Assembly: GCF_017854415.1 (NCBI RefSeq)
Contig: NZ_JAFMHR010000002.1
Location: forward strand, 1-62,587
Direction: 5' to 3'
DNA length: 62,587 nucleotides
From: Yoonia sp.
Lineage (GTDB): Bacteria > Pseudomonadota > Alphaproteobacteria > Rhodobacterales > Rhodobacteraceae
The notes under the pieces were generated by a model, which worked only from the letters and a program-made list of their open reading frames with translations, was not told the DNA's origin and did not search any database. Of this stretch, positions 41,048 through 43,482 are shown piece after piece. Position 1 is the stretch's first letter. Each line of letters opens with the position of its first letter. The translations under genes and the position numbers were made by a program.

Positions 41048-41569
41048 ATGTCAGTTAGAAACATCCTTCTTCACCCCGACCCGCGCTTGAAAAAAGTGGC
41101 CACGCCTGTGACGTCCGTCTCGGATGAATTGCGCCAATTGGCTGATGATATGCTTGAGACAATGTATGACGCGCCCGGCATTGGGTTGGCAGCACCACAG
41201 GTGGCTGTGATGAACCGTATGATTGTGATGGATTGCGCCAAAGACGAAGACGCAACCCCAGAGCCGATGGTTTTGATCAATCCAGAAGTTGTTTGGACCT
41301 CGGACGAACAATCCGTCTATGACGAGGGCTGTTTGTCCATACCAGAGCATTATGCAGAAGTTGAACGCCCCGCGGAAGTTGAAGTGTCGTGGATGAACCT
41401 TAATGGTAAAATTCAACGCGAACACTTTGACGGGTTGTGGGCCACCTGCGTGCAGCATGAAATAGATCACCTGGACGGAAAGCTGTTCATTGATTACCTG
41501 CGCCCGCTGAAACGCCAGATGATCACCCGCAAGATGCAAAAGCTGAAACGCGAAATGGCGCGGGGCTAG
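41048..41569 (+). CDS. def: Peptide deformylase
   Basis: 173 residues with all three deformylase motifs intact: GIGLAAPQ (about 45-52), EGCLSIP (about 92-98) with the metal-binding Cys, and QHEIDHLDG (about 136-144) with the catalytic Glu and metal-binding His residues. It removes the formyl group from the N-terminus of nascent proteins. It is the first of three tandem deformylase genes followed by fmt, and probably supplies the housekeeping activity. Confidence 0.95.
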   Translation: MSVRNILLHPDPRLKKVATPVTSVSDELRQLADDMLETMYDAPGIGLAAPQVAVMNRMIVMDCAKDEDATPEPMVLINPEVVWTSDEQSVYDEGCLSIPEHYAEVERPAEVEVSWMNLNGKIQREHFDGLWATCVQHEIDHLDGKLFIDYLRPLKRQMITRKMQKLKREMARG

Positions 41570-41573
41570 GGTT

Positions 41574-42035
41574 TTGGCATTGCGCGAAATCTGTTATGAA
41601 GGCGCGCCGGTATTGTTAGCGACAGCAGCGCCAGTCTCCAAATTTGACGACGCGCTTGGCCATTTGATCCGTGATATGTTCGAGACGATGTATGCAGCCC
41701 CTGGGCGCGGATTAGCCGCCCCGCAGGTTGGCGTCAGCCAGCGGGTGTTTGTTGTCGATACGAAATGGAAAGAAGCAGATCCAGAATCGATGCTTTTTGT
41801 GAACCCGCGTATTGCAACGCAGGCGGATACGCAAATTGATGGCGAAGAGGCCTGCTTGTCGATCCCCGACAAACGCTTTCGCGTCAGCCGCCCCGCTTGG
41901 GTCGAACTGGTCTGGCAAGACCTTGACGGTGTCGTCCAGAAAGGCCGGTTTGAAGGCATGAAAGCCGTCTGCATTTGTCACGAACTGGATCATCTGAACG
42001 GTATCTTGATTACCAAAAGTGGAATGCAATTATGA
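41574..42035 (+). CDS. Peptide deformylase paralog, motif-variant
   Basis: 153 residues with near-canonical motifs: GRGLAAPQ, EACLSIP (Ala for the usual Gly) and CHELDHLNG with the HExxH-like core intact. It keeps the metal Cys and the catalytic Glu, so it may be active with altered substrate preference, and is shorter than def at the C-terminus. It starts at TTG four bases after the def stop. Its stop overlaps the next gene by four bases (ATGA). Confidence 0.85.
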   Translation: MALREICYEGAPVLLATAAPVSKFDDALGHLIRDMFETMYAAPGRGLAAPQVGVSQRVFVVDTKWKEADPESMLFVNPRIATQADTQIDGEEACLSIPDKRFRVSRPAWVELVWQDLDGVVQKGRFEGMKAVCICHELDHLNGILITKSGMQL

Positions 42036-42532
42036 CTCATCGCCCTTTTGTCATGTGGCCCCATACATCACTCAAGACGGTCGCCGCCCCTGTGAAAGAA
42101 ATCACGGATGACGTGCGTGCGATTTGGGACGAAATGATCAATGCGATGGATACCATGCCGGGCGTTGGTTTGGCTGCCCCGCAATTGGGGATTGATATGG
42201 CATTGGCCGTTGTCGATGCGTCGAGCGAGCGCGGCAAAGCAATTCGTATGGCCAACCCAGAGATTTTGCACAGCAGTATAGAGCCGCGCGATCATGAAGA
42301 AGGATCGCCCAATTTGCCGGGTGTTTGGGCTAAAATCACGCGACCTCGTGCTGTGACTGTGCGGTTTTTGAATGCCCAAGGCCAATGGGACCGCCATGAT
42401 TTTGTGGGTCTTTGGGCGACATCCGTGCAGCACCAGATTGATCATTTGAATGGCAAGATGTTCTTTGATCGCCTGACACGTATGAAGCGGGATATGTTGA
42501 TCAAGAAAGCGCGCAAGCTTAAGCGTGGCTGA
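42032..42532 (+). CDS. Peptide deformylase-like protein lacking catalytic residues
   Basis: About 166 residues. Motif 1 is intact (GVGLAAPQ), but motif 2 reads EGSPNLP, with Ser in place of the metal-binding Cys, and motif 3 reads QHQIDHLNG, with Gln for the catalytic Glu. It therefore should not hydrolyse formyl peptides in the usual way, although both His ligands remain. A basic C-terminal tail (KKARKLKRG) resembles that of def and may bind ribosomes. The start chosen overlaps the previous stop (ATGA). It could act as a regulatory or binding partner. Function unknown. Confidence 0.85.
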
Positions 42533-42535
42533 CCA

Positions 42536-42574
42536 CCGGATGCCTCCGGCGGAAGTTTTTTAGGAATAAGAAGG
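42536..42574 (+). repeat. Dispersed repeat between the deformylase genes and fmt
   Basis: CCGGATGCCTCCGGCGGAAGTTTTTTAGGAATAAGAAGG, beginning three bases after the last deformylase-like stop. CTCC/GGAG-type pairing is followed by six T residues, and AAGAAGGTGG at its right end provides the fmt ribosome-binding site. Confidence 0.7.
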
Positions 42575-42582
42575 TGGAACCA

Positions 42583-43482
42583 ATGCGTGTGATTTTCATG
42601 GGGACACCTGATTTTTCAGTGCCGGTTTTGCAAGCTCTTGTGGATGCAGGGCACGAGATTGCCGCAGTTTATTGTCAGCCGCCCCGTCCTGCAGGGCGTG
42701 GCAAGAAAGATCGCCCCTCGCCCGTTCAATTACGGGCAGAGGCATTGGGGCTAGATGTGCGCTATCCGGTAACGCTCAAGTCCGTTGATGCGCAGGCAGA
42801 GTTTGCGGCGTTCAATGCCGATGTTGCTGTTGTCGTTGCGTATGGCTTGATATTGCCGCAAGCGATTTTGGATGCGCCGCGTCTTGGGTGTTTGAATATT
42901 CATGCGTCGTTGCTGCCGCGCTGGCGTGGCGCTGCCCCGATCCACCGCGCGATTATGGCGGGTGATGCGCAAACTGGCGTTTGCATTATGCAAATGGACG
43001 CGGGCCTTGATACTGGACCCGTTTTGTTGCGCGAAGCGACGGATATCGCAGCGGATGAGACGACCGGCGGTCTGCATGATCGGTTGTCTGCAATGGGTGC
43101 GTCCCTTGTCGTGACTGCTTTAGATCAGTTGCAGAACCTGACCGCGACGGCCCAACCGCAAGGGGGCGTGACTTATGCTGCCAAGATCGACAAAGCAGAA
43201 GCGCGCGTGGATTGGACCCAATCCGCAGCCGTTGTCGATCAACTCATCCGTGGATTGTCACCGTTTCCAGGTGCGTGGTGCGAGGTGTCGGGCGAGCGTC
43301 TTAAGTTGCTTGGGTCGCGTGTCGTTGACGGCGTGGGACAACCCGGAGAAGTCTTGGACGGGTTTGTTATTGCTTGCGGGCAAGGCGCTGTCGAGGTGAC
43401 GCAGGCCCAACGGTCCGGTAAGAAAGCAATGGCCGCCGCGGACGTGTTGAAGGGGCTGACGCTGGGCGCACGCATCGGATAG
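42583..43482 (+). CDS. fmt: Methionyl-tRNA formyltransferase
   Basis: About 299 residues with [20 protein letters not shown] at the start, [11 protein letters not shown] near 35 and the formyl-folate site [16 protein letters not shown] near 105. It formylates initiator Met-tRNA, the step that deformylase later reverses, which explains the operon. The track gives a GTG three codons upstream; the ATG with AAGGTGG five bases before it is preferred. The last gene before the unknown cassette, with a 129-base gap after it. Confidence 0.95.

Follow-up and report, generated by a model that had tools for sequence, protein, structure and literature searches.

The largest known set of clustered peptide deformylase (PDF) genes is that of the Rhodobacterales, published in 2025 as unexplained: such genes are clustered in 98.1% of the reference species of the order, with three together in most (62.5%) (Lamberioux et al. 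2025, PMC12690207). The rationale of these clusters was called elusive, and PDFs with divergent motifs were treated generally as type 3, possibly active under stress (PMC12690207). Type 3 accessory PDFs, including DefA of Staphylococcus aureus and Streptococcus pneumoniae as well as archaeal and trypanosomatid members, carry substituted motifs, with low or no activity in those proteins (PMC5591237, PMC12690207). A non-enzymatic task has been described for Bacillus subtilis DefA, a minor PDF which, once inactive, binds and inhibits the kinase PtkA together with fMet peptides (PMC11194573).

We herein analyse a window (the whole stretch of DNA studied, 62,587 nucleotides; Yoonia sp., Rhodobacteraceae, assembly GCF_017854415.1, contig NZ_JAFMHR010000002.1) in which a third def gene, def3, lies between two other def genes and fmt. 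Its product resembles type 1B PDFs such as Escherichia coli Def (1BS4, 2W3T; PF01327, TIGR00079) in fold, length, C-terminal helix, motif I, Gln50, Glu88 and both His, as well as in belonging to a def-fmt operon. Unlike them, Def3 has Ser, Pro and Gln in place of the metal Cys, the oxyanion-hole Leu and the catalytic Glu in 195/195 proteins. It shares substituted motifs with the type 3 PDFs, but it appears distinct from them, being alphaproteobacterial and type 1B-like with an intact ribosome helix, confined to Rhodobacteraceae in the genomes searched, and marked by one fixed substitution set and a fixed operon position. B. subtilis DefA, for its part, is an enzyme that is active until oxidation and loss of iron inactivate it, whereas Def3 is permanently without the residues and has no known kinase partner. 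Lamberioux et al. (2025) dealt with the same clusters, and the accessible portion of their paper is silent on whether one member is a fixed clade of catalytically dead proteins and on which PDF stays in clusters of two (PMC12690207). A literature search covering few subscription journals returned no description of the Def3 clade, no biochemical data on it and no assay of a homologue with the same substitutions, and the literature on Rhodobacterales PDF function, essentiality, Glu133 mutants and PDF pseudoenzymes held nothing specific to Def3. Inactive accessory PDFs are already known in staphylococci and streptococci; what appears to be new here, judged from the sequences, is a fixed, type 1B-like pseudo-deformylase clade.

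Operon and active site of Def3 in Yoonia

Four same-strand genes, def1, def2, def3 and fmt, occupy positions 41048-43482 of the window (Table 1). The earlier note had called this a def-def-def-fmt operon with a complete, in-frame and translationally coupled third paralogue, and both points hold: both paralogues upstream of it have canonical motifs (EGCLSIP/QHEIDH and EACLSIP/CHELDH), fmt lies downstream of def3, and the def3 frame, free of internal stops, runs intact from a start within the def2 stop. A terminator scan called none in the def3-fmt interval. The whole Yoonia genome (3.12 Mb, 92.6% complete) contains three PDF homologues, all in this operon, and the closest named relative of the window Def3 is a protein of Yoonia maricola (Rhodobacterales), at 84%.

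Table 1. Features of the def1-def2-def3-fmt region, in window coordinates.
Feature	Position	Strand	Description
def1	41048..41569	+	Canonical PDF, 173 aa; GIGLAAPQ, EGCLSIP, QHEIDHLDG; C-terminal basic helix; TIGR00079 177.6 bits
def2	41574..42035	+	Second PDF, 153 aa, TTG start; GRGLAAPQ, EACLSIP, CHELDHLNG; catalytic residues intact; without C-terminal ribosome-binding helix
def3	42032..42532	+	Putative pseudo-deformylase, 166 aa, ATG start; 4-nt overlap with def2 stop (ATGA, 42032-42035)
fmt	42583..43482	+	Methionyl-tRNA formyltransferase; alternative GTG start at 42574
def3 TCG CCC AAT (Ser92-Pro93-Asn94)	42305..42313	+	Motif II; replaces Cys90-Leu91-Ser92 (E. coli numbering)
def3 Ser131	42422..42424	+	Position of E. 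coli Cys129, S1' pocket
def3 motif III (H134-Q135-I-D-H138)	42431..42445	+	Both metal-site His kept; catalytic Glu133 to Gln (CAG)
def3 C-terminal helix (residues 150-165 in AlphaFold model)	42479..42526	+	Counterpart of E. coli PDF ribosome-binding helix

The window Def3 reads GVGLAAPQ in motif I and EEGSPNLPG in motif II, and against E. coli Def (NC_000913; E. coli numbering) it shows Cys90 to Ser, Leu91 to Pro, Ser92 to Asn, Cys129 to Ser and Glu133 to Gln. The earlier note had correctly placed and read the loss of the metal-binding Cys and the catalytic Glu beside a retained GVGLAAPQ; it overlooked the changes at Leu91, Ser92 and Cys129, their family-wide fixation, and the helix that is kept in def3 and lost in def2. 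Across all Def3 members motif II follows E[AGV]SP[NCH], with Ser at the Cys position in 195/195, and motif III follows HQxDH, with Gln at the catalytic Glu position again in 195/195. Motif I (GxGxAAxQ) is present, and G43, G45, Q50, E88, H132 and H136 (E. coli numbering) are 100% kept. Def3 differs from Def1 at the C90, L91, S92, C129 and E133 sites in a fixed or nearly fixed manner, Asn at 92 being found in most members only.

The codons behind these residues vary for serine and are uniform in kind for glutamine. Ser92 of Def3 is encoded by AGY in 116 and by TCN in 79 of the 195 distinct proteins, both serine codon families also occur at Ser131, and position 135 uses CAG or CAA exclusively. 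No revertant to Cys or Glu was present among these 195 proteins; GAR (Glu) is one base away from CAR, and TGY (Cys) is likewise one base away from AGY and TCY, which make up most of the serine codons observed. Chance or sequencing error was rejected as an explanation in view of the identical residues in 195 distinct proteins. In PDF structures the backbone NH of Leu91 helps to hold the formyl oxygen, and a proline at this position removes that NH, so that formyl-peptide binding by Def3 could be weak. As a separate observation, Trp32 (42125-42127) and Met42 (42155-42157) are invariant in Def3, while other alphaproteobacterial PDFs have Ala or Met at 32 and Ala at 42; Met42, immediately before motif I, might fill the Def3 cleft or alter its shape.

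Distribution, selection and phylogeny of the Def3 family

The Rhodobacteraceae are a large, predominantly marine group of bacteria, and a protein search of 121 of their genomes, one per genus, gave Def3-level matches in 98 genera. The 92 Def3 proteins extracted from the family loci all carry E-x-S-P and H-Q-x-D-H, and the motif II Cys and HExDH are kept in every Def1 (92-96 sequences) and in all 49 Def2 from the same loci. SP and HQxDH were likewise found without exception in 80 further loci from named genomes (Yoonia, Loktanella, Ruegeria, Roseovarius, Leisingera, Thioclava, Rhodobacter and others), and 206 loci gave 195 distinct Def3 proteins in all. At least 10 near-complete genomes of the family have Def1 only and no Def3, which so appears dispensable in some lineages; most Def1-only genomes branch early and a few are nested, in a tree whose branch support is too low for counting losses.

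Gene order is equally regular. The 80 named loci comprise 44 of def1-def3-fmt, 31 of def1-def2-def3-fmt, four of def1-def2-def3 with fmt outside the stretch seen, and one that is cut off. Two-PDF clusters are therefore nearly always Def1 plus a putatively dead Def3; a single locus (G119, L348/L351) has the order def1-def2-fmt without def3. The 4-nt overlap recurs at 34/35 Def2-Def3 junctions and at 16/44 Def1-Def3 junctions.

Beyond the family, no Def3 came to light when about 380 genomes of about 172 other alphaproteobacterial families were searched with a profile: nothing there exceeded 185 bits, compared with 264-298 for Def3, and the top 25 matches all read EGCLS and HExDH. The DNA pattern for QHQxDHLxG, scanned through 399 Pseudomonadota genomes, matched 25 of 27 Rhodobacteraceae and no PDF gene in the 372 genomes from outside the family; in the two Rhodobacteraceae that it missed, Def3 was recovered by protein or profile search. 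Two matches outside the family were rejected, one lying in a non-PDF ferredoxin-type membrane protein and the other having the same surrounding genes with no PDF among them. An assembly labelled as the actinobacterium Nocardioides marinus DP1N28-1 contains a Def3 67% identical to that of the window (L153, JAHVJD010000009.1), and this contig is probably Rhodobacteraceae contamination. Horizontal spread by phage was also rejected, as a QHQxDHLxG scan of viral contigs turned up nothing credible as a Def3 orthologue of full length; its full-length PDF hits were limited to one T4-like phage PDF, present in three copies and bearing different changes of its own (ETSFS/HQMDH).

Selection was estimated as NG86 medians of dN/dS in 30 same-genus genomes, from pairs with dS<2. 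The medians were 0.074 for Def1, 0.099 for Def3, 0.099 for Fmt and 0.208 for Def2, rough values in that most pairs were near synonymous saturation; the Def3 pairs with dS<1, only eight, had a median of 0.049. Def3 is under purifying selection, being constrained like Fmt and more than the catalytically intact Def2. The earlier note had proposed looking for purifying selection in homologues with the same changes, and this is what was found (dN/dS about 0.10, the same value as for fmt and one half of that for def2); relaxed selection, which it had named as the contrary result, was looked for as well, and no decay was seen.

In a maximum-likelihood phylogeny of 88 sequences, Def3 forms a single clade (support 100/100) on a stem of 0.89 substitutions per site with mostly short tips, and stands as a clade of its own beside other alphaproteobacterial PDFs in this tree, which holds no type 3 reference sequences. 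The Def2 sequences evolve fast and make up another clade (98/94), which groups with Def1. A long stem with slow evolution after it is the pattern expected of a change in function and subsequent constraint, and the best explanation is that Def3 arose once, early in Rhodobacteraceae.

Predicted fold and C-terminal helix

Def3 matches PF01327 over its full length (127.2 bits against a cut-off of 22.8; residues 5-153 on profile positions 3-155) and exceeds the curated deformylase cut-off of TIGR00079. Counts of "PDF genes" or of "accessory PDFs for inhibitor resistance" in the abundant marine Rhodobacterales would thus include a probable non-deformylase. Its AlphaFold model, built on a 44-sequence alignment, has a pLDDT of 94.5 and a pTM of 0.89, with a C-terminal helix at residues 150-165. 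In a Foldseek search of the PDB the best 50 matches listed were all PDFs (TM on the query 0.84-0.94), and the model superposes on E. coli PDF entries with a TM of 0.92-0.95 (about 0.93) and an rmsd of 1.4 Å.

The C-terminal tail has a median net charge of +7 in Def1, +7 in Def3 and -2 in Def2. Ribosome-contact positions of Def3 are kept to different degrees (K150 in 87%, K157 in 73%, K160 in 97%, R163 in only 29%), while Def3 shares Met with Def1 at position 153 and varies at position 149. The equivalent residues of the E. coli PDF helix contact uL22 and 23S rRNA (PMC12690207), and the C-terminal extension was reported to be necessary for E. coli PDF activity in vivo (PMC5591237). Def2 would appear to have kept the chemistry and lost the ribosome helix, and Def3 the reverse. 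In Def2 itself (the window copy and 49 sequences) motif I always has Arg at E. coli position 44 (GRGLA), the ribosome helix is missing, the tail is acidic and evolution is fast, features that suggest an oddly specialised paralogue, catalytically intact by its residues.

Candidate roles of Def3

With its intact reading frame, its purifying selection and the fixed loss of its catalytic residues, Def3 is by sequence criteria a conserved pseudoenzyme and not a pseudogene, and we infer that it lacks deformylase activity. The non-enzymatic role put forward in the earlier note is well supported by family-wide fixed substitutions, fmt-like purifying selection, an intact predicted fold and the lack of decay, and its suggestion of a formyl-peptide or ribosome-binding competitor would fit the cleft residues and the basic C-terminal helix that Def3 retains. 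We consider it somewhat short of an even chance (roughly 0.45) that Def3 is a ribosome-associated pseudo-deformylase that competes with Def1, or gates it, at nascent fMet chains.

The mechanism might run as follows. The chemistry would have been lost through replacement of the metal-ligand Cys by Ser, of the oxyanion-hole Leu by Pro, of the adjacent Ser by Asn in most members, and of the catalytic Glu by Gln, while the formyl-Met binding cleft would have been kept, as would the basic helix that places PDFs next to uL22 where the ribosomal tunnel opens. Because the cleft (G43, G45, Q50, E88, H132, H136) is invariant and the substitutions are fixed, the cleft would still have a role, probably in binding and not in cleaving; the retained helix in turn suggests ribosome docking. 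Presumably co-produced with Def1 and Fmt from one operon, Def3 would dock at or near the PDF site of translating ribosomes, where it may occupy that site or loosely hold the fMet N-terminus uncleaved, and would thereby tune the timing of access by Def1 and then by methionine aminopeptidase, trigger factor or SRP. The most specific version, a dedicated Rhodobacteraceae pseudo-deformylase that docks on the ribosome as a competitor or gate of the active PDF and leaves the formyl group on the fMet N-termini it recognises, is more doubtful. If true, such a pseudo-deformylase would add a level of regulation to N-terminal processing and account for the clustering of def genes in Rhodobacteraceae, the commonest two-gene state being one live and one dead copy. 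That the most conserved accessory PDF is a fixed, putatively dead clade makes the cluster puzzle testable, as the question of what a deformylase that bears the ribosome helix, and is putatively inactive for good, does beside fmt.

Def3 may instead serve Def1 or Def2 as a regulator or chaperone, a pseudo-subunit that binds the active PDF or its metal and stabilises or inhibits it. The pairing of an active enzyme with a pseudoenzyme paralogue is common, and Def3, encoded alongside Def1 and often translationally coupled, never occurred without Def1 in the 92 family loci. This reading is nevertheless unlikely, in that type 1B PDFs are generally monomeric, Def3 conservation centres on the catalytic cleft with no obvious new interface, and Def3 is found both with and without Def2.

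Two further possibilities have rather low and similar probability. One is that Def3 senses free N-formyl-Met peptides and signals to another protein; its conserved substrate cleft fits this, and B. subtilis DefA is a direct precedent for an inactivated PDF with a non-enzymatic regulatory role assisted by fMet peptides (PMC11194573), but the ribosome helix, with its charge of +7, has been kept although superfluous for sensing, and there is no known partner. The other is a hydrolase of altered chemistry, for example with an oxidation-insensitive metal site formed by two His together with Ser or water, performing slow deformylation or some other activity under stress. Both metal-site His and Gln50 are invariant, motif-divergent PDFs have been proposed to use other metals under oxidative stress, and Trypanosoma brucei type 3 PDFs are active despite changed motifs (PMC12690207); on the other hand, the metal Cys, the oxyanion-hole Leu and the general-base Glu are all lost together, and this Glu contacts the substrate directly in PDF structures (Glu175 of Streptococcus agalactiae PDF, PMC5071857).

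A decoy shielding Def1 from natural PDF inhibitors is very improbable: such inhibitors exist, and active accessory PDFs confer actinonin resistance (PMC12690207), but hydroxamates bind chiefly through the active-site metal and the catalytic Glu (PMC5071857), both compromised in Def3. Least credible of all is a functionless, decaying duplicate, for although the catalytic residues are gone and some genomes are without Def3, 195 intact distinct proteins with identical substitutions, a dN/dS of about 0.1 equal to that of fmt and a single slow-evolving clade after a long stem refute decay as a general statement, leaving it for individual genomes only.

Losses of PDF active-site residues were also observed among viruses. 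The T4-like phage PDF (IMG/VR contigs; L286:333-827, also L287 and L270) adjoins a gp46-like gene and reads EETSFSFPG and QHQMDH, with its own Cys to Ser and Glu to Gln changes. Its relatives are mostly canonical, with other losses in QQLDF (L313), ETSLT/HEMDY (L322) and HELDF (L316), which suggests that PDF activity may have been lost repeatedly in phages.
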